Below are positions 344 to 19,385 of a stretch of 19,385 bases of DNA, piece by piece (the stretch's first letter is position 1; each line of letters begins with the position of its first letter). The translations under genes were made by a program, and so were the position numbers. Origin of the DNA: an uncultured Porphyromonas sp. (GTDB lineage: Bacteria > Bacteroidota > Bacteroidia > Bacteroidales > Porphyromonadaceae); assembly GCA_945867245.1 (NCBI GenBank), contig CAMBHQ010000004.1:1-19385 (forward strand), in the 5' to 3' direction. The notes beneath the pieces were generated by a model. The model had not been told where the DNA came from and ran no database searches. It saw only the letters and a list, made by a program, of their open reading frames with translations.

Positions 344-500
344 AGTGGTCAGTGGGTTTTATAGTGGTCAGTGGCTAGTGGTCGGTGGTCAGTGGTCGGT
401 GGTCAGTGGTCAGTGGTCAGTGACTGGCGCACGCCACTGCCCACTGCATACTAGCCACTGATCACTGCGGGCTCTGCCCGCCCCACTGCCCACTACCCAC
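344..500. repeat. Heptad-repeat palindromic element, copy A
   Basis: Nine consecutive 7-mers in exact register fill 363-425 (AGTGGTC, AGTGGCT, GGTGGTC and variants). A TGGCG-CA-CGCCA core follows at 425-436, then complementary-sense 7-mers (ACTGCCC, ACTAGCC, ACTGATC) from 436. A GCGGGC-TCT-GCCCGC mini-hairpin lies in the right arm at 467-481. The whole element can fold as a long imperfect hairpin. It begins 2 bases after the stop codon of the upstream gene and ends about 10 bases before the -7 box of the M16 gene. Confidence 0.9.
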
Positions 501-547: not shown

Positions 548-3373
548 ATGTTACTGACAATCGTTAAACGTGGTGTATTGGCAGTGGTGAGCCTTCTGGC
601 TGCTACTACTGTCAGCGTGGCACAGGAGATGCCCGCACTACCTATCGACCCTGCGGTCAAGATGGGCAAGCTCGACAATGGGCTGACCTACATCATCCGC
701 AAGAATCAGCATCCCGAGGGGAGAGCACACTTCTACATCGCTCAGCGTGTAGGCTCTATGCAGGAGGAGGAGAGCCAGCGTGGCCTAGCGCACTTCCTAG
801 AGCACATGGCCTTCAATGGCACCAAGAACTTCCCCGGCAAGACTATGACCAGCTGGCTAGAGACTATCGGGGTGAAGTTTGGCTCCAACCTCAATGCCTA
901 TACAGGCTTCGATGAGACTGTGTATCAGATTATGGATGCTCCCGTAGCACGTCAGACAGTAGTGGACTCGTGTCTGCTTATCCTGCACGACTGGAGCAAT
1001 GGCATCAGCCTCGAGGAGAAGGAAATCGATGCCGAGCGTGGTGTGATACAGGAGGAATGGCGCTCACGCAATACGGGTAACCTGCGCGTGCTAAGCAAGA
1101 CCATCGAGAACGCCTTCCCTGGTCTGCGCTATGGCAACCGTATGCCTATCGGTACGATGGAGGTGGTACGCAACTTCAAGTACGACGAGCTACGCAATTA
1201 TTACAAGCGTTGGTATCGCCCCGACCTACAGGGTATCATCGTAGTAGGGGATATAGACCCTGCCTACGTAGAGGCCAAGATCAAGAGCCTTTTCGGGGGT
1301 ATCAAGGTGCCAGCAGGCGCACCCGAGCGCACTTACCTACAGGTGCCTAAGTTCGAGGGCGTACGTGCTAGCATAGCTACCGACAAGGAGGCCGTAGGCT
1401 CGCAGGTGTCTGTGTACTTCGTCTCTGAGGCGATGCCCAAGAACTTCAAGGCTAGTCAGGCCGGTCTTATTACGGACTATATCCTGGGCATCATCAGCTC
1501 GGTAGCTGCTGAGCGCTTCGGGGATATCATCAAGAAGCCTAATGCGCCTTTCCTCAGAGCTAGCCTAGCTCAGGACGACTTCATCATCGACAAGTCTCAG
1601 ATGGCGTTTGCCTTCAGTGCTACGGCAGCCGATGGCAAGAGCGATGTCGCCCTCAAGGCCCTCGTAACAGAGATCGAGCGTCTAGCTAAGCATGGCATCA
1701 CCGCTGGCGAATACGATCGTGCTAAGCGCGAGGCTATGGCGAACCTCAAAAAGCTCTACGACGAACGCGAGAAGCGCAAGAATGGGGCTTACATAGAGGA
1801 GTACACCGAGTACTTCCTCAACGGTGGCTATATCCCTGGCATCGAGGCCGAGTATCAGATGCTCACGGCTATTGCCGACCAGATACCTGTGGCTGTCTTC
1901 AATCAGACTCTAGCCCAGTCGCTCGCAGCCAAGGATAATATCTTCGTCTCTATCACAGGTCCAGAGAAGGAGGGCATCAGCTATCCTACGGCCGAGCAGC
2001 TCGTGGCTAAGTTCAACGAATATCGTGCTCTGCCCGTAGAGGCCCTCAAGGAAGAGGTGAGCAATAGCAAGCTCATCGACAAGGCGCCAAAGGCAGGCCG
2101 TGTCATCAAGGAAAACAAGGCGGGCAAGTACGGCTCTACGGTGTGGACGCTCTCCAACGGCATCGAGGTCGTAGTACTGCCTACGACGCACAAGGAGGAC
2201 GAGATACGCTTCACGGCTCAGCGCTCGGGCGGTACCTCTACCTTCGGTCAGAAGGATGCCCTCGAAGTGCGTGCTATGCCTGGCGTTATCAACCTCGGCG
2301 GACTCGGCCAGTTCGATGCTAGCGCCCTCGGCAAGGCCCTCTCGGGACGTATCGCCAGCGCCTCGTCTGGCATCGACCTCACGAGCGAATCGCTCGGCGG
2401 TAGCTCTACCAAGGCCGACCTAGAGACGATGATGCAGCTATTGTATCTCAACTTCACGGCCAAGCGTAGCGACAAGGAGGCCTTCGCTGCCTATCAGGAG
2501 AAGGCTATCAATATGCGCAAGATGGTCGAGGCCAACCCAATGGGCTCTATCTCGGACAGCGTAACGCGTGCCCTCTTCCCCAACAACCCCGAGCTACTGA
2601 GCATGACCGAGGCCGAGATTAAGGCCATCAACTACGAGCGTGTGATGCAGATGTATCAGGAGCGCTTCGGCAATGCGCATGGCTTCAAGTTCGTCTTCGT
2701 CGGTAATATCGACCTCAAGACCTTCCGCCCACTGGTAGAGACTTATATCGCCTCACTGCCTGCCAAGAAGGGCATCAAGGCTGCCGATATGAGCAAGCTC
2801 CCCATGGAGCGCAAGGGTACCTACACCAACCACTATACCAAGAAGCAGGAGACGCCTATGGGCTTTGTCTTCGACTATTATAGCGGTAAGCTAGAGTATA
2901 GCCAGCGCAATGTGCTGACGATGAGAATCCTCAGCGAAGTGCTCGACCAAGTATATGTAGAGACGATCCGTGAGCGCGAGGGCGGTACCTATGGTGCTAG
3001 CACCGACGCCAGTCTCTCATTCGAGCGCAAGGGGCAGGCCAACGTGCAGGTTGTCTTCCAGACCGACCCCGACAAGGCTCAGCGCCTCAATCAGGTCGTG
3101 AACGAAGAGCTACAGCGTGTAGCCCGCGAAGGGGCCGACAAGGCTAAGTTCGACAAGGTAATCGCCAACATGGAGAAGAACTACGCCGAGAAGCAGAAGG
3201 AGAATGGCTATTGGACTAATCAGCTGATCACCTACTACTACCACGGCCTAGACAACCACACGAATTACCTCGCGACGCTCAAGGCCATCACGCCTGCCGA
3301 GGTCGGCACACTCCTCAAGCAGCTCCTCGACCAGAAGAACACGATTGAGGTGATGATGCTACCAGAGAAGTAG
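548..3373 (+). CDS. Secreted M16 family zinc protease (two-domain, insulinase/pitrilysin-like)
   Basis: A 941-residue protein starting with a Sec signal peptide (basic start, hydrophobic stretch about 9-24, probable cleavage near VAQ), so it acts in the periplasm or outer envelope. The inverted zinc motif HxxEH is intact as HFLEH at residues 82-86. Glu163, in 'EIDAERGVIQEEW', sits about 77 residues downstream as expected for the third ligand. A second M16-type half follows; its C-terminal part carries 'REREGGTYG' around residues 805-815, the conserved Arg/Tyr substrate-binding segment. Length fits the large Bacteroidota M16 proteases that degrade unfolded or short polypeptides. It appears monocistronic: repeat elements lie on both sides and a -7 box lies upstream. 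The ATG at 548 is chosen because it directly precedes the signal peptide. Confidence 0.93.
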   Translation: MLLTIVKRGVLAVVSLLAATTVSVAQEMPALPIDPAVKMGKLDNGLTYIIRKNQHPEGRAHFYIAQRVGSMQEEESQRGLAHFLEHMAFNGTKNFPGKTMTSWLETIGVKFGSNLNAYTGFDETVYQIMDAPVARQTVVDSCLLILHDWSNGISLEEKEIDAERGVIQEEWRSRNTGNLRVLSKTIENAFPGLRYGNRMPIGTMEVVRNFKYDELRNYYKRWYRPDLQGIIVVGDIDPAYVEAKIKSLFGGIKVPAGAPERTYLQVPKFEGVRASIATDKEAVGSQVSVYFVSEAMPKNFKASQAGLITDYILGIISSVAAERFGDIIKKPNAPFLRASLAQDDFIIDKSQMAFAFSATAADGKSDVALKALVTEIERLAKHGITAGEYDRAKREAMANLKKLYDEREKRKNGAYIEEYTEYFLNGGYIPGIEAEYQMLTAIADQIPVAVFNQTLAQSLAAKDNIFVSITGPEKEGISYPTAEQLVAKFNEYRALPVEALKEEVSNSKLIDKAPKAGRVIKENKAGKYGSTVWTLSNGIEVVVLPTTHKEDEIRFTAQRSGGTSTFGQKDALEVRAMPGVINLGGLGQFDASALGKALSGRIASASSGIDLTSESLGGSSTKADLETMMQLLYLNFTAKRSDKEAFAAYQEKAINMRKMVEANPMGSISDSVTRALFPNNPELLSMTEAEIKAINYERVMQMYQERFGNAHGFKFVFVGNIDLKTFRPLVETYIASLPAKKGIKAADMSKLPMERKGTYTNHYTKKQETPMGFVFDYYSGKLEYSQRNVLTMRILSEVLDQVYVETIREREGGTYGASTDASLSFERKGQANVQVVFQTDPDKAQRLNQVVNEELQRVAREGADKAKFDKVIANMEKNYAEKQKENGYWTNQLITYYYHGLDNHTNYLATLKAITPAEVGTLLKQLLDQKNTIEVMMLPEK

Positions 3374-3519
3374 TGGATCAGTGGGCGGGCAGAGCCCGCA
3401 GTGGTCAGTGATCGGTGGTCAGTGATCAGTGATCAGTGGTCAGTGGTCAGTGATCGGTGGTCAGTGATCAGTTGCTGGCGCACGCCACTGACCACTGCGT
3501 ACTGACCACTACTTACTGG
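3372..3519. repeat. Heptad-repeat palindromic element, copy B
   Basis: This copy starts inside the M16 stop codon: the TAG supplies the AG of the first AGTGG. A GCGGGC-AGA-GCCCGC mini-hairpin occupies 3385-3399. Eleven in-register 7-mers cover 3400-3476 (AGTGGTC, AGTGATC, GGTGGTC). The TGGCG-CA-CGCCA core is at 3476-3487, followed by ACTGACC-type 7-mers to about 3514. It is the longest left arm in the window. Confidence 0.9.
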
Positions 3520-3551
3520 CAACGGCTAGCCGAATTTTCGGCTAGCCGTTG
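3520..3551. terminator. Perfect 15-bp hairpin downstream of the M16 gene
   Basis: CAACGGCTAGCCGAA (3520-3534) and its exact reverse complement (3537-3551) are separated by only two bases. It lies directly after heptad copy B, 147 bases past the M16 stop. The bases after it are not T-rich, so it may terminate transcription, protect an mRNA 3' end, or be part of the adjoining repeat. It would work on either strand. Confidence 0.5.
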
Positions 3552-3563
3552 CTGCGTTTATGG

Positions 3564-3647
3564 CCACCTAATAACCCGACCAAGCTCCGCCTATTAGGCG
3601 GCCACTTGCCCGCCTAATAGGCGGACGATCGTCTACCTATTAGGTGG
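3564..3647. repeat. Four-unit array of 15-base palindromes with a 23-base period
   Basis: Units begin at exactly 3564, 3587, 3610 and 3633. The last three are near-perfect palindromes: CCGCCTATTAGGCGG, CCGCCTAATAGGCGG and CTACCTATTAGGTGG. The first, CCACCTAATAACCCG, keeps only its left half. Each palindrome is followed by an unrelated 8-base spacer (accaagct, ccacttgc, acgatcgt). Palindromes conserved at fixed spacing with unconserved spacers suggest binding sites for a dimeric DNA-binding protein, or a series of small hairpins. The array lies about 210-290 bases before the predicted susC -33 box. Confidence 0.8.
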
Positions 3648-3655
3648 ACTAGCCT

Positions 3656-4078: not shown

Positions 4079-7000
4079 ATGAAACGAAAGTTCTTAGGAG
4101 CTATGTCGCTTGTTGTGGCCTTGCCCTTCGCTGGAGTCCTCTCTGCGACGGCGGCTGCGAGCGTGGCGACGGCCCCCGCTGCCAACGTGCAGCAGGGTAA
4201 GACGATTACCGTCAAAGGTAAGGTGCTCGACAAGACTGGCGAGCCTATCATCGGCGCCAACGTACGCGTCGTAGGTACGGCCTCGGGTGCTAGCACAGAC
4301 CTCGATGGTAATTTTACGCTCAATGTGCCCGCTAATGCAAGCCTTGCGATTAGCTATGTGGGTATGAAGCCTCAGACCATCGCTATCGCAGGCCGTACAC
4401 AGCTAGAGGTCGTGCTAGAGGATGAGTCGCAGAGCCTCGATGCCGTAGTGGTTACCGCCCTCGGTATCAAGCGTAGCCAGAAGGCACTATCGTACAACGT
4501 GCAGGAGATGAAGAGCGATGCCCTCACCACGGTGAAGGACGCCAACTTTATGAATGCCCTCAGCGGTAAGGTAGCCGGCGTAAACATCAATGCCTCTGCC
4601 TCTGGCATCGGCGGTGCTACACGTGTCGTGATGCGTGGTCCTAAGTCGCTCAACCAAAGCAACCAGGCGCTCTACGTAATCGATGGGGTGCCTATGTTTA
4701 ATGTCAACGGTGGTGAGACAGGCGGGTGGAATGCCAGTCAGCCCAAGGGCGAAGGTATCTCGGACATCAACCCCGATGACATCGAGTCAATGAGCGTCCT
4801 CTCGGGTCCTGCTGCTGCCGCTCTGTACGGCTCTAGCGCTGCCCAGGGGGTGATAATGATTACCACCAAGAAGGGTAAGGAGGGTAAGGTATCGGTGATG
4901 CTGAGCAACAGCAGCTCGTTCTCTAACCCCTTCGTGATGCCTCAGTTCCAAAATGAGTACGTCAATAATCCTGGCGAGACGCGCTCGTGGGGTGCTAAGC
5001 AGGCCAGCCGCTTCGGTGCCTTCGACCCTGCGGACTTCTTCAATACGGGTACGAGCATCCTCAATACCGCCTCGCTGACCGTGGGTAGCGAGAAGAATCA
5101 GACGTACCTCTCTATCGGTACCTCCAATGCTACGGGTATCATACCCAACTCGGCTTACGACAAGTACAACTTTACCTTCCGTAATACGACCAAGTTCCTA
5201 CAGGATAAGATGACGCTGGACTTCGGCTTCAACTTCATCAAGCAGGACGACAAAAACCTGATGGCCCAGGGGCAGTACCTCAACCCTCTGGTACCTCTGT
5301 ACCTCTTCCCTCGTGGCGAGAGCTTCGACGCTGTGCGTACCTTCGAGGTCTGGGACCCTGTCCGCAAGATTTATACGCAGAACTGGGGCTATGGTAACGA
5401 CTTCCAGATGCAGAACCCTTACTGGGTAGCGCATCGTATGAATCGTACCAGCGACAAGAAGCGCTACATGGGTAACATCAACCTGAAGTATCAGGTGCTC
5501 GATTGGCTAGACGTTACGGGCCGTGTGCGTGCCGACATCAGCAACACGCTCTACGAGGACAAGCGCCATGCCTCTACGATTATGATCTTCGCCCACTCGC
5601 CTGCCGGCTACTATGGCTACGAAAAGGGTGAGGACATCGCCGTATATGCCGACCTGATGGCCAACATCAACAAGACCTTCGGCGAGGACTACAGCCTCAG
5701 TGCCAACGTAGGTCTATCGACCAACCGCAGCTACAGCGAGTCTCGTGGTTTCTGGGCAGGTCTGCGCAATATCCCCAACTTCTTCTCGCCTCAGGAGCAG
5801 GACTACGGCACGCCTACGGGTGCTAACCGTGCCACTTACTACGACCATCGCCACGTTACCAACTCTGCCTTCGCTAGTGCCGAGCTGGGCTACAAGCGTA
5901 TGCTCTACCTAACGCTGACAGGCCGTAGCGACTGGGACTCTGCACTCGCCTATACGAGCAGCAACCCATTCTTCTATCCCTCGGTAGGTCTGTCGGGTAT
6001 CATCAGCGAGATGGTGCAGCTACCCGATTGGTTCGATTACCTCAAGGTACGTGCCTCGTGGGCTAAGGTAGGTTCGCCTATCCCTCAGCAGCTCTCATCA
6101 CCTTACCGCTACGAGTACGACCCTGCTACGCAGAGCTATTCGACGGTAACGTATAAGTTCCCCGAGCAGTTCAAGCCAGAGATGACCACCTCGTGGGAGG
6201 CTGGTGTAACGGCTAAGTTCTTCCGCAACAAACTGAGCCTCGACGCTACTATCTACCAGTCTAATACGCACAACCAGACCTTCCCTGTACCTTATACACA
6301 GGAGCCTGGTTACTCTAGCATCTACATCCAGGCCGGTGATGTGCAGAACCGCGGTATCGAGCTCTCTCTGAGCTACAACCAGCAGTTTAGCAAGTCCTTC
6401 GACTGGACGACGACGCTGACCTTCTCGGCCAACGAAAACCGCATCAACGAGCTCTATGAGGGCCTAGACAACCCCATCAACAAGGGCGGTCTCAATGGTG
6501 CTAACGTCTACCTGCGTCCTGGTGGCACGATGGGTGATATATACATCGATAAGGCTGTACGCCGTGATAGCGAGGGCAATCCTGCGCTCGATGCTCTGGG
6601 CAATATGACTATCGAGACCCTCTCTACCCCACGCTATGCAGGCTCTGTACTGCCCGATGCCAACCTCGGCTGGCGCAACGACTTCTCGTGGCAGGGCTTC
6701 AACTTCGGCTTCCTGCTGACGGCACGTCTCGGGGGTATTGTACTCTCTCAGACGCAGGCTATCCTAGACAGCTATGGCGTGTCTAAGGCCTCTGCCGATG
6801 CCCGTAATAATGGCGGTATAGCATTCAACAAGGGTACTATCGATGCGCAGACCTTCTACTCTGCCGTAGGGGGCGAGTCGCCACTATGGAGCGAGTATAT
6901 CTACGACGCTACCAACGTGCGCCTACAGGAGGCCTTCATCTCTTATACGCTGCCCAAGAAGTGGTTCAAGGATAAGGCTAACGTTAGCCTCGGTCTGACG

Positions 7001-7164: not shown

Positions 7165-8721
7165 ATGAAACAAAATATCACTAAGAGCACGCTGGTGGTG
7201 CTCGCCTCTATGGCGACGCTAGCGCTCGGCTCTTGTACTGCGGGCTTCGAGTCTATCAACGACCCTCGCGAGAAGGCTAATGCCGAGCTGCTCGGACGAG
7301 ATAATTATAATGTTACCTCGTTTATTGCCAACATACAGGACGCCTCTTTCCCTCAGCAGGAAAACCAGGCACAGATGACCAACGACCTTATCGGTCGCTA
7401 CCTCGGTCGCTACTTCACCTACACTGAGGGGGGCTGGTATGGTAAGAGCTTCGCTACCTTCAACGCCCCCGAGGGCTGGGTGCGGTGGCCTTATCGCAAT
7501 ATGATACCCAAGATTGTCGCCAACTTCAACGACGTTAAGCGTCTAGCTGGCGATAACTACGCAGAGGACCTCAACTACAACTGGGCGCTCATCACACGTG
7601 CGCACTCCTTCCTACAGATGACCGACATCTACGGCCCTCTGCCACTAGGTCTAGACCCCGCTAATCCTAATGCCTACAACAGTCAGGAGTTTATCTACAA
7701 GCAGCTCATCGCCGACCTCGACAAGGCTATCGCCTATATCGATGCTAATAAGGTGGGCGTAGTAGCTGCACTCAAGAATACGGACGAGTTCTACGGGGGC
7801 GACTTCGCCAAGTGGCGTCGCTTCGCCAACTCGCTCAAGCTCCGTATGGCCGTGCGTATGCGTCAGGTAGCGCCGGCCTATGCCCAGGAGGTGGCCGAGA
7901 AGGCTGTCCAGGATGGCGTAATCGAGTCTAATAGCGACAACCTAGTACGCTACTACAATCCGCTCGGTATCTACAAGACGAGCGTAGAGTGGGGTGATAG
8001 CCGTCTGTGTGCGGACCTCGATAGCTATATGAATGGCTACAACGACCCACGTCTAGCTAAGTACTTCAAGCCTGCTGCTGAGCCTACTGTCCGTCCGATT
8101 ATCGGTGCCCTAGCAGGGTCCAACATCGGTAACAAGGCCATCGCCGTTAAGCTCTACTCTGCGGCTAACGTAGAGCGTACGAGTGGCGAGCCCTTCGTAA
8201 CGGCTGCCGAGATGTACTTCTGCCGTGCCGAGGGCGCTCTCTACGGCTGGGCTATGAAGGGCGAGGCTCAGGCTATGTACGAGTCTGGGGTGAAGGCTTC
8301 CTTCGAGCAGTGGGGCGCAGGTGATGCTACGGCTTACCTCGCTAACAGCACCGCTCAGCCTGCTGCCTACACAGATGCTACCGGTGGCTATGGCTCTAGC
8401 CTGACGGCACCTAGTACCATCACCGTGGCTTGGAACGCCTCAGCTACTCAGGAGCTGAACCTCGAGCGTATCATCACGCAGAAGTGGATTGCCCTCTTCC
8501 CCAATGGACAGGAGGGGTGGACGGAAATACGCCGTACGGGTTATCCCAAGATTTTCGACATCCAGACCAGTAAGAACGGCTATACGCTACGCACGCCCAA
8601 CCGTGTGCCTTTCGACAGCGAAGAGAAGGTAAACAACCCTGCGGCTTATGCTGCTGGCGTTGCCCTACTAGGTGGTGCTGACAACTACGCTACGCCTATG
8701 TGGTGGGACCGTACTAACTAA
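7165..8721 (+). CDS. SusD-like (SusD_2 type) glycan-binding surface lipoprotein
   Basis: A 518-residue lipoprotein with lipobox LGSC and lipidated Cys24. Residues after the tether show the helical, TPR-like SusD layout, including 'RAHSFLQMTDIYGPLPLG' (about residues 146-163) and 'KWRRFANSLKLRMAVRMRQ' near 214-232. These are typical of the SusD-like_2 branch. The C-terminal part ('QKWIALFPNGQEGWTEIRRTGYP') is also typical. It should form the hinged lid over the SusC barrel and capture the oligosaccharide. The start follows the SusC stop by 20 bases in an A-rich stretch without a Shine-Dalgarno sequence, as usual for Bacteroidota. Its place in the operon matches GpdD. Confidence 0.92.
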   Translation: MKQNITKSTLVVLASMATLALGSCTAGFESINDPREKANAELLGRDNYNVTSFIANIQDASFPQQENQAQMTNDLIGRYLGRYFTYTEGGWYGKSFATFNAPEGWVRWPYRNMIPKIVANFNDVKRLAGDNYAEDLNYNWALITRAHSFLQMTDIYGPLPLGLDPANPNAYNSQEFIYKQLIADLDKAIAYIDANKVGVVAALKNTDEFYGGDFAKWRRFANSLKLRMAVRMRQVAPAYAQEVAEKAVQDGVIESNSDNLVRYYNPLGIYKTSVEWGDSRLCADLDSYMNGYNDPRLAKYFKPAAEPTVRPIIGALAGSNIGNKAIAVKLYSAANVERTSGEPFVTAAEMYFCRAEGALYGWAMKGEAQAMYESGVKASFEQWGAGDATAYLANSTAQPAAYTDATGGYGSSLTAPSTITVAWNASATQELNLERIITQKWIALFPNGQEGWTEIRRTGYPKIFDIQTSKNGYTLRTPNRVPFDSEEKVNNPAAYAAGVALLGGADNYATPMWWDRTN

Positions 8722-12256: not shown

Positions 12257-12272
12257 AGACGAGGCTCTATAT

Positions 12273-12320
12273 AAACGACCCGCCCCCGAGTGCCATTTGG
12301 CGCTCTGGGGCGGGTCGTTT
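12273..12320. terminator. Strong terminator of the susC operon, probably bidirectional
   Basis: AAACGACCCGCCCC (12273-12286) pairs exactly with GGGGCGGGTCGTTT (12307-12320), with a further inner stem around GCC-ATTT-GGC. The outer A-T pairs supply T residues at the 3' side on both strands. It lies 16 bases after the last gene of the plus-strand operon. It could also stop transcription of the convergent rlmH gene, which ends at 12441. Confidence 0.88.
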
Positions 12321-12441
12321 AGTGGTCAGTGGTCGGTGGGGCGGGCGGAGCCCGCAGTGATCAGTGGCTAGTGATTAGTGGTCAGTGGCTGGCGCAAGCA
12401 ACTGACCACTGCTTACTGCTCACTGCTTACTGGGCACTGCT
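12321..12441. repeat. Heptad-repeat palindromic element, copy C
   Basis: The left arm starts directly after the operon terminator (AGTGGTC, GGTGG, then a GCGGGC-GGA-GCCCGC mini-hairpin at 12341-12355, AGTGATC, AGTGGCT, AGTGATT). The core is a degenerate TGGCG-CAAG-CA near 12390-12400. The right arm of ACTG-type 7-mers (ACTGACC, ACTGCTT, ACTGCTC) runs to the rlmH stop codon. The core has lost symmetry compared with copies A and B. Confidence 0.85.
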
Positions 12442-12925: not shown

Positions 12926-13050
12926 AGTGGGCAGTGGCTAGTGGTCAGTGGGGCGGGCAGAGCCCGCAGTGGTCGGTGATCAGTGGTCAGTGGTCGGTTG
13001 TGTGCGCCAGCCCACTGACCACTAGCCACTAGCCACTGCCCACCGACCAC
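12926..13050. repeat. Heptad-repeat palindromic element, copy D
   Basis: AGTGGGC, AGTGGCT, AGTGGTC and AGTGG are followed by a GCGGGC-AGA-GCCCGC mini-hairpin (12953-12967) and further 7-mers to about 13000. The core is degenerate (TTGTGTGCGCCAG). Right-arm 7-mers (ACTGACC, ACTAGCC, ACTGCCC, ACCGACC) run to 13050, 2 bases from the DUF3127 stop. It fills nearly the whole gap between the two minus-strand genes. Confidence 0.88.
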
Positions 13051-13052
13051 TA

Positions 13053-14569: not shown

Positions 14570-14730
14570 AGTGGCCGGTGGGGCGGGCTCTGCCCGCAGT
14601 GGCTAGTGGCTAGTGGTCGGTTGCTGGCGCACGCTATGCCTAGTGTCTCTAGTATGCCTAGTGTCCCTAGTGTCCCTAGTATCTCTAGGAATGCTAGCCG
14701 CCGACCACTAGCTCACTGCCCACAGATCAC
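14570..14730. repeat. Heptad-repeat element, copy E, interrupted by a 9-base array
   Basis: The left arm has AGTGGCC, a GCGGGC-TCT-GCCCGC mini-hairpin (14583-14597), AGTGGCT repeats and GGTTGCT. The core starts normally as TGGCGCACGC, but a 9-base CTAG array (14638-14700) follows at once. Only then do ACTAGCT- and ACTGCCC-like right-arm units appear (14701-14730). The array therefore looks inserted into, or grown from, the right arm. Confidence 0.85.
14638..14700. repeat. 9-base CTAG-centred tandem array, copy 1
   Basis: Seven in-register 9-mers: GCCTAGTGT, CTCTAGTAT, GCCTAGTGT, CCCTAGTGT, CCCTAGTAT, CTCTAGGAA and TGCTAGCCG. The central CTAG is invariant while the flanks vary. A plus-strand frame through it reads as Ser-Val-Pro-type repeats, but that follows simply from the 9-base period and is not evidence of coding. 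Confidence 0.9.
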
Positions 14731-14743
14731 CGTCAGGCACAGC

Positions 14744-14786
14744 AATAAGCCGAGCAATATCACGATTGGATATTGCTCGGCTTATT
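14744..14786 (-). terminator. 18-bp perfect hairpin downstream of the fimbrillin-like gene
   Basis: AATAAGCCGAGCAATATC (14744-14761) pairs perfectly with its reverse complement at 14769-14786 around a 7-base loop. It lies 34 bases past the stop of the minus-strand lipoprotein gene. The closing A-T pairs give a short U-containing end (CTTATT), but no long T-run follows. It is probably that gene's terminator or 3'-end protector. Confidence 0.75.
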
Positions 14787-16332: not shown

Positions 16333-16408
16333 GTTCATTGGATGCGATCTATAAAATATGTGAAGCGACGTATTAGCTTTTTTGGGTTTGTTTATTGTTA
16401 TTTCGTAT

Positions 16409-16480
16409 CGATAGTATCCCTAGTGATCCTAGTGAGTCTAGTGTGCCTAGTATCCCTAGTGATCCTAGGAATGCTAGCCA
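16409..16480. repeat. 9-base CTAG-centred tandem array, copy 2
   Basis: Eight in-register 9-mers: CGATAGTAT, CCCTAGTGA, TCCTAGTGA, GTCTAGTGT, GCCTAGTAT, CCCTAGTGA, TCCTAGGAA and TGCTAGCCA. The last two units (CTAGGAA, TGCTAGCC) are nearly the same as at the end of copy 1, and both arrays then run into ACTAGCC/ACTGCCC heptads. They are therefore the same composite element. Confidence 0.9.
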
Positions 16481-16516
16481 CTGCCCACCGACCACTAGCC
16501 CACTAGCCACTGCCTA
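16472..16516. repeat. Heptad-repeat element, copy F (right arm only)
   Basis: GCTAGCC, ACTGCCC, ACCGACC, ACTAGCC and ACTGCCT-type units run from the 9-base array into the stop codon of the ABC permease gene. No left arm, GCGGGC hairpin or TGGCG core is present; the 9-base array occupies their place. Confidence 0.8.
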
Positions 16517-19312: not shown

Positions 19313-19385
19313 TCGGTGGTGGTCGGTGGGGCGGGCAGAGCCCGCAGTGGTCAGTGGCTAGTGGTCGGTGGTCAGTGGGGCGGGC
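19313..19385. repeat. Heptad-repeat element, copy G (cut by window end)
   Basis: GGTGGTC units, a GCGGGC-AGA-GCCCGC mini-hairpin at 19331-19345, then AGTGGTC, AGTGGCT, AGTGGTC and GGTGGTC, and the first half of a second GGGGCGGGC at the window edge. It begins about 5 bases from the start codon of the first DUF3526 permease gene. Confidence 0.85.

Follow-up and report, generated by a model that had tools for sequence, protein, structure and literature searches.

What are the seven-base repeats that occupy most of the intergenic gaps in this stretch of Porphyromonas DNA, and what kind of process could have placed them there? The window, by which we mean the whole 19,385-nucleotide stretch that was analysed, is contig C4 of assembly G000 (1,368,916 bases in 270 contigs, 54.58% complete, reported contamination 0.08%), and its SusD and TonB-plug genes are consistent with the Bacteroidota. 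The seven gaps considered are all those of at least 60 bp in the window as read from the list of ORFs, the last of them ending at the contig end. A first-pass annotation had described in them in-register RGTGRYY heptads, and these proved real, with 34 strict pairs and 24 triples where 200 dinucleotide shuffles average 0.03 and 0.000, and with no strict pair elsewhere in the window. In positional order the gaps hold 9, 9, 5, 6, 2, 0 and 3 strict pairs; the sixth (16472-16516), which has none, carries one three-unit run under the looser pattern RGTRNNY. The same annotation had read a single architecture into all seven gaps, which stands for the heptads (strict in six, looser in the gap at 16472-16516) but not for the shared core, since GGCRCANGC or its reverse is present in five of the seven, at 426, 3477, 12391 (as the variant GGCGCAAGC), 13000 (reversed) and 14626.

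Full copies are modular, and consist of a left heptad arm, whose units in the window are of the AGTGGTC type, a core (TT)GCTGGCGCACGCYA, a right arm of reverse-complement heptads and often a 15-bp GC palindrome, GCGGGCNNNGCCCGC, which is found in six of the seven window gaps and was absent from the earlier list. The copies in the window are as follows.

Copy A, 344..500, plus strand: nine left-arm units at 363-425, the core at 426-434, four right-arm units at 439-466 and the GC palindrome at 467-481.
Copy B, 3372..3519, plus strand: the GC palindrome at 3385-3399, ten left-arm units at 3400-3469, the core at 3477-3485 and four right-arm units at 3490-3517.
Copy C, 12321..12441, plus strand: left units at 12321-12334, the GC palindrome at 12341-12355, five left-arm units at 12356-12390, the core variant GGCGCAAGC at 12391-12399 and a degenerate right arm that runs to 12441.
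Copy D, 12926..13050, minus strand, core reversed: left units at 12926-12946, the GC palindrome at 12953-12967, the left arm at 12968-12995, the core at 13000-13008 and six right-arm units at 13010-13051.
Copy E, 14570..14730, plus strand: the GC palindrome at 14583-14597, three left-arm units at 14598-14618, the core at 14626-14634 and, past the core, CTAG 9-mer units and a short distal right arm.
Copy F, 16412..16516, no strand assigned, partial: CTAG 9-mer units, then a right arm, with the looser run at 16476-16496; no left heptad arm, core or strict in-register pair.
Copy G, 19313..19385, plus strand, truncated where the contig stops: left heptad units, the GC palindrome at 19331-19345, and no core in the part present.

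Separate hairpins adjoin copies C (12272-12321, directly before it) and E (14744-14786). Left arms of nine units in A and eleven in B had been reported; nine is correct for A, ten were counted in B, and both right arms have four, these counts depending on the unit definition used in the present analysis.

The copies had further been proposed to expand and contract while staying palindromic, and this was not borne out. Arm lengths are not correlated (Spearman -0.32, p 0.10, 27 pairs), mirrored units match at 0.711 against 0.713 when shuffled (sd 0.011, p 0.61), and over the same 27 pairs they match no better than swapped partners (p 0.91). The element is thus palindromic only at the level of the consensus and its arms are not mirror copies, so that the hairpin is better regarded as a property of the shared vocabulary than of pairwise upkeep. 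That vocabulary is small: among 454 units the commonest words are AGTGGTC (120), AGTGGCT (87), AGTGATC (48), AGTGGGC (41), AGTATGC (31) and GGTGGTC (25), and the last two bases after RGTGG are TC in 145, CT in 103 and GC in 51. AGTGGTC and AGTGGCT differ at two positions, yet the one-step intermediates are rare (CC 7, TT 7), and because the words are discrete in this way block copying fits better than drift in place. Similarity between adjacent units falls below that of shuffled ones (0.692 against 0.723, sd 0.007), at a distance of two units it lies above (0.749 against 0.722, sd 0.008), and at three it is no different. Neighbours thus avoid identity, which indicates that recent change was not mainly slippage by one unit; two-unit growth would fit.

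Folding the copies as RNA, which had been proposed as a check, gave in six of the seven gaps stretches much stronger than their shuffles, with z of -6.72 at 360-480 (A), -4.66 at 3398-3520 (B), -5.13 at 12320-12441 (C), -6.05 at 12926-13050 (D), -4.65 at 14571-14720 (E) and -5.21 at 16400-16514 (F). Copy G at the contig end reached z -2.11, with 7 of 200 shuffles equally good.

The family is dispersed, as first suggested, but its spread is not genome-wide. In a sample of 35 of the 270 contigs (400,551 bases, window included; some were picked for search hits, so the sample is not random) there are 83 runs of at least three units on 14 contigs, and strict tandem pairs occur on the same 14, with none on the other 21, which total 228,550 bases and include C2, C8, C9, C12-C26 and C28-C30. 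All but 6 of the 83 runs lie outside ORFs of at least 100 aa (77/83), and three of those six are copy D, masked by a spurious ORF. By automatic ORF calls, runs are present in 38 of 66 gaps of at least 60 bp, namely 24 of 47 tandem, 8 of 11 divergent and 6 of 8 convergent gaps. The GC palindrome occurs 28 times on 8 of the 14 heptad contigs and never on the 21 heptad-free ones, and the core, allowing at most one mismatch in 17 positions, has 21 copies in the assembly. The 30 core matches beside heptads in 18 contigs examined are divided between the orientations (14 and 16), and relative to genes 11 cores lie in the same and 5 in the opposite direction (p 0.21). Copies from different contigs align at about 69-85% over 120-240 bp. 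A search of the whole assembly for three units in a row gave 68 forward and 46 reverse matches, the reversed version of this pattern being a rotation of the pattern itself and hence no valid control; the 100 matches listed in contig order lie on 12 contigs up to C63, which are 8 of C1-C11, 3 of C12-C62 and C63.

This uneven distribution may reflect a mixed bin of two close genomes. Among those 100 matches, arrays are found on 8 of the 11 longest contigs against 3 of the next 51 (C12-C62), an excess on long contigs that a two-genome bin predicts and that an element spreading freely in one genome does not. Against a mixed bin, codon usage overlaps between the two kinds of contig, contamination is reported at 0.08%, and both kinds are equally near the nearest congener, G015, with median identities of 66.8% (8 proteins) and 67.6% (18) for the 26 of 286 proteins that passed 50% identity and 60% length against 500 kb of G015. 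Other private repeats also lie on both kinds. One is a second palindrome family with core GACGATCGTC and arm units of about 23 bp of the CCTAWTAGGCGGCCACTT type, present in the window at 3586-3650 and at 28 loci on contigs C1-C149, heptad-bearing and heptad-free alike, with one match among 25 congeners; by eye it is unlike the BrickBuilt sequence. The presence of this family on both kinds of contig and their equal distance from G015 speak for one lineage.

Comparison with related genomes, another check that had been proposed, separates the core from the heptads. Among 26 genus genomes the heptads occur in one, G000; AGTGRYCAGTGRYCAGTG is found in none of the 25 congeners, nor is the core at up to one mismatch in 17 positions, and 12 other genomes of the family gave one single-mismatch core match. 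The core family is private to the G000 lineage. At the site of copy D, the rlmH-DUF3127 gap is comparable in 23 congeners with rlmH, and heptads are found there in none; in the 18 congeners whose DUF3127 match reaches at least residue 139 of 144 the gap is at most 34 bp in 12 and about 100-320 bp in 6. By eye, the nearest congeners, G015 and G019, have in this gap a terminator-like hairpin and no heptads.

The heptad class AGTGRYC, on the other hand, is not private, and occurs in scattered bacteria of many phyla and in phages. A scan with one genome per species returned at least 118 stretches, and the titles of 80 of these name Planctomycetota, Acidobacteria, Chloroflexi, Cyanobacteria (Anabaena, Nostoc), Bacillota, Deltaproteobacteria, Gemmatimonadota, Bacteroidetes and others. 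The class is present in 15 of 395 sampled genomes of the window's phylum, G000 included, and in 13 of 149 from the phylum to which an Acidobacteria record belongs, and some heptad-bearing genomes in these two samples hold dozens of matches. The Acidobacteria-phylum sample gave 215 matches against 16 for the reversed pattern. In the window's phylum the figures are 81 and 49, with 32 of the 49 in G138 and G287, whose listed arrays are AGTGACC and match both patterns alike; leaving these two out, 51 matches (22 in G000) stand against 17 (14 in one genome). In a viral collection AGTGRYC matched 115 stretches against 43 for the reversed pattern (12 shared), 5 for GTAGRYC, 24 for AGGTRYC and 2 for TGAGRYC, related viral contigs being counted apart, so that viral stretches are not independent events.

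These arrays obey a rule of order. Where runs on opposite strands face each other, counting AGTG/CACT-type heptads alone, the AGTG run comes first and the CACT run second: the ratio is 27:0 on the contigs of G000 for runs at most 120 bp apart, with same-strand pairs at 4 and 4, and one CACT-first neighbourhood, of 129 bp and so beyond that limit, lies between two complete elements in a single gap on C10. Among the 80 loci taken from the at least 118 of many phyla, 24 are AGTG-first and one (L126) CACT-first (p 1.5e-6), 10 being too near an end and 45 having no partner within 150 bp; some of these loci come from a common genome. When each run must have at least three units, non-identical pairs in these genomes stand at 21:0 (same-strand 2 and 2). 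Viral stretches hold an AGTG-first pair in 38 cases and a CACT-first pair in none, many of the contigs being related, and their non-identical pairs stand at 36:0 (same-strand 15 and 12). Loci of the Acidobacteria phylum gave 5:0 and those of the window's phylum 7:0, although two of the latter are from G000. Single arrays tend to read inward from the nearer gene, in 35 of 50 cases in the many-phyla genomes, 84 of 120 in viruses and 10 of 15 in G000 (p 0.0066, 1.4e-5 and 0.3); within 30 bp of the gene the counts are 17 of 24, 40 of 50 and 4 of 5, and within 60 bp, provided that the far side has 120 bp free, they are 11 of 18, 16 of 35 and 5 of 6.

The same units placed in the opposite order would form the same duplex, so by this reasoning, which involved no computation, hairpin stability does not explain the rule. 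The order points instead to a directional copying or binding process, and since it is nearly without exception in separate data sets it is a hard constraint on any cause, checkable in any genome; neither simple slippage nor simple selection for a hairpin predicts it. One might go further and propose a pan-bacterial class of "heptad brackets", in which AGTG-first arrays face each other across an intergenic centre through a directional process and of which the published TAACTGA repeats are one dialect, an extension that we consider improbable. Were it true, a candidate agent would be an enzyme by which heptads are added or copied at the 3' ends to either side of a gap, or alternatively a protein that acts only on facing arrays. 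Telomerase-like repeat addition by a bacterial reverse transcriptase has been reported for DRT10, with other repeats (preprint PMC12632851). The sole RVT_1 domain found in G000 is retron-like and so lends no support to such an enzyme; it lies at C128 2-913 (L494), is cut by the contig end and has RT-Protease_XI, RT-TIR_XII and Retron_TIR as its best models, none over the NCBIfam cut-off. It lies near a WYL-domain gene and fmt. A Chi-like signal, which the polarity also suggested, was rejected because the words are not in excess in coding DNA: over 298,923 coding bases, with ORFs containing tandem heptads dropped and 60 bases trimmed from each ORF end, observed and expected counts are 26 and 28.5 for AGTGGTC, 56 and 59.8 for AGTGGCT, and 8 and 5.8 for AGTGATC.

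Phages such as L418 may offer a small system for finding the mechanism. In L418 arrays occupy 9 of 11 gaps and have a core of their own, AGTAAAGGC...GCCTTTACT, common to L385, L395 and L326; L316 has another centre. In the phages a stop codon marks the beginning of several left arms, several right arms run up to just short of a start codon, and in the L418/L385/L395/L326 group some arrays span from stop codon to start codon. Ten proteins of L418, L350 and L316 were scanned, of which two, both from L418, are baseplate or tail proteins, one from L350 gave a weak match below the cut-off and seven had no match. The 12 viral matches to the G000 core are not copies of the element, as 11 of them fall inside ORFs and each has at most one heptad within 60 bases, and the combination GTGG-GC-palindrome-AGTGG has no match in the viral collection.

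Seven related phage pairs were aligned. In L337-L385 and L337-L386 the arrays diverge less than the rest (0.005 and 0.000 of 203 array columns against 0.059 and 0.040 elsewhere), so a function may apply; the two pairs share L337, and L385 and L386 are 99% alike. For L418-L385 the arrays stand at 0.199 of 342 columns against 0.218 for the rest, with gaps within arrays; for L350-L389 at 0 against 0, with one 50-bp difference within an array; for L325-L399 at 0.062 of 32 columns against 0.050, with one 21-bp gap; and for L330-L413 at 0 of 21 columns against 0.096, while L364-L369 are identical over their main match. Taken together, the pairs suggest that the arrays are not clearly hypervariable and that they change by more than one step size. 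In L350, four-heptad blocks recur at 50-bp spacing (6405-6532 and 7718-7845), and in L418 the remainder of a 50-bp unit begins AGTAAAGGC.

Heptamer repeats have been noted for years in scattered genomes with no agreed cause; those of Calothrix carry the name STRR. The absence of a match to any catalogued family, which the first-pass annotation had made the measure of novelty, holds in part: the literature searches made gave no published description of the palindromic element, the results listed for its heptad words looking unrelated by title, while heptamer repeats of the same sequence class are already published. The closest are the TAACTGA repeats of Beggiatoaceae, Cyanobacteria and five Bacteroidetes (MacGregor 2015, PMC4679880), which in the best-studied genome are mostly forward and ahead of start codons, with one inverted case among 170 sets and no predicted secondary structure; horizontal transfer or a common binding protein is favoured there, with the S1, Csp and Csr families as candidates. 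Like them, the present repeats are seven-base units in register, intergenic, mixed with related heptamers and patchy, being scattered among near relatives and present in distant phyla. A TAACTGA array is moreover (GATAACT)n, whose reverse complement (AGTTATC)n is built of an AGT-NN-TC word, as the present arrays are; ahead of start codons the TAACTGA array has the orientation of the present right-hand arm. Unlike those direct repeats, as they are described there, which lack an inverted partner or structure, the present arrays commonly face each other around a shared core (27 facing pairs) and form very strong hairpins. The element is therefore best read as a variant, palindromic and polar, of the intergenic heptamer repeats already known and not as a plain member.

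Other published heptamers differ further. The GGGAATC and GGGGA(C/T)T heptamers of Xanthomonas and Nostoc, described in a paper that also cites the slippage idea, Calothrix heptamers and the Helicobacter repeat GTGATTA, a rotation of AGTGATT, are likewise intergenic and sometimes inverted, with slippage discussed, but they are G-quadruplex-forming words with four units preferred, and the relevant parts of that paper describe no fixed core or polarity rule (PMC4692102). The BrickBuilt MITE of Porphyromonas gingivalis is also an intergenic tandem repeat of variable copy number in the same genus; its 23-nt unit AGAYCATARTATCCTCTCRTRTG, with leader, tail and terminal inverted repeats, is by eye unlike the heptads, the core and the GACGATCGTC family (PMC4596501). 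Arm lengths here also vary freely, as they do not in a typical MITE. Rfam 15 gave no match in the window at gathering score, and the original impression of an unrecognised family is upheld in that Rfam, the BrickBuilt 23-mer (compared by eye) and the REP/RAYT system (in an assembly 54.6% complete) gave no match; terminator, REP/RAYT, BrickBuilt and Chi readings of the element lack support. New here are the wide reach of the AGTGRYC class, the order of facing arrays, and the few discrete words whose neighbours avoid identity.

The reading that we favour, at a probability of roughly 45%, is that these gaps contain copies of a non-coding, dispersing hairpin repeat private to the species. Whole elements or blocks would be copied from gap to gap within the lineage in the manner of a MITE or REPIN, the arms would change length in heptad steps, the strong hairpin would be tolerated in any type of gap without serving one class of gene, and the order of the facing arrays would stem from the directional copying or binding process. 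This dispersal is suggested by the recurrence of the core and of a few heptad words in unrelated gaps in both orientations, and by congeners that do not have the element. The absence of arrays from 21 of 35 sampled contigs speaks against dispersal in one genome, as does the lack of any Y1 transposase in the G000 assembly (54.6% complete). Element ends, target duplications and empty sites could not be defined, the congeners being too divergent, and no second genome of the species was found. It is unlikely that the arrays are simple heptamer satellites that grow and shrink in place by polymerase slippage, as proposed by Mrazek 2007 (cited in PMC4692102 and PMC4679880), with the hairpin as a by-product. 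A seven-base unit in register, array lengths that vary from copy to copy, and the report that heptanucleotides outnumber other long simple repeats in most genomes rich in repeats (PMC4679880) would all suit slippage. The likeness of units two apart and unlikeness of neighbours is, however, the reverse of what recent one-unit duplication leaves, although two-unit duplication would fit, and slippage accounts neither for a core and GC palindrome common to dozens of places nor for the order of facing arrays.

Hairpins acting at mRNA ends as terminators, insulators or mRNA stabilisers had been put forward as a role, and they would suit folds far above shuffles (on both strands in the three copies so tested), some copies that begin at a stop codon (on C3, for instance, runs at 6779 and 7384 against gene ends at 6780 and 7385) and the terminator-like hairpin that G015 and G019 have where G000 has copy D. 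We hold a common role of this kind to be quite unlikely, since runs occupy 8 of 11 divergent gaps, none of the 14 terminator-like sites in the window falls on a heptad arm while separate hairpins stand beside copies C and E, the core has no firm orientation to genes, the arms are not kept complementary unit by unit, and the opposite arm order would, on the same reasoning as above, give the same duplex and leaves polarity unexplained. Putative binding-site arrays for an architectural or RNA-binding protein that needs facing sites would agree with the discrete words, the strict order and the low array divergence in one phage comparison; with heptads in 1 of 26 genus genomes the binder or its use would have to be equally patchy, and we judge this reading distinctly improbable. 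Least of all do we expect a REP/REPIN system moved by a RAYT (Y1) transposase. In REPINs the same tetranucleotide points outward on both sides and GTAG precedes the REP, so that dispersed intergenic palindromes, the order of the paired arms and the GTGG ahead of the GC palindrome all resemble that system. Besides the absence of Y1_Tnp from G000, however, this domain occurs in 14 of 14 heptad-bearing (one match weak, E 9.9e-4) against 23 of 28 heptad-free genomes of the phylum (p 0.15) and in 17 of 19 heptad-bearing genomes of other phyla, being absent in G422 and G428, and none of 30 Y1 loci, drawn from heptad-bearing and heptad-free genomes other than G000, has an array of at least three units within about 3 kb.

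Two further features accompany the arrays. CTAG 9-mer arrays lie beside heptad cores at 14637-14690 and 16412-16475 of the window, which has 14 spaced CTAG matches, and such matches are far commoner on heptad contigs than on the other sampled contigs. The Bacteroidota -7 promoter box is TAnnTTTG, and TACCTTTG, at 511-518 just past copy A, fits it; the same word follows arms on C7 and C10 and, reversed, precedes one arm on C11.
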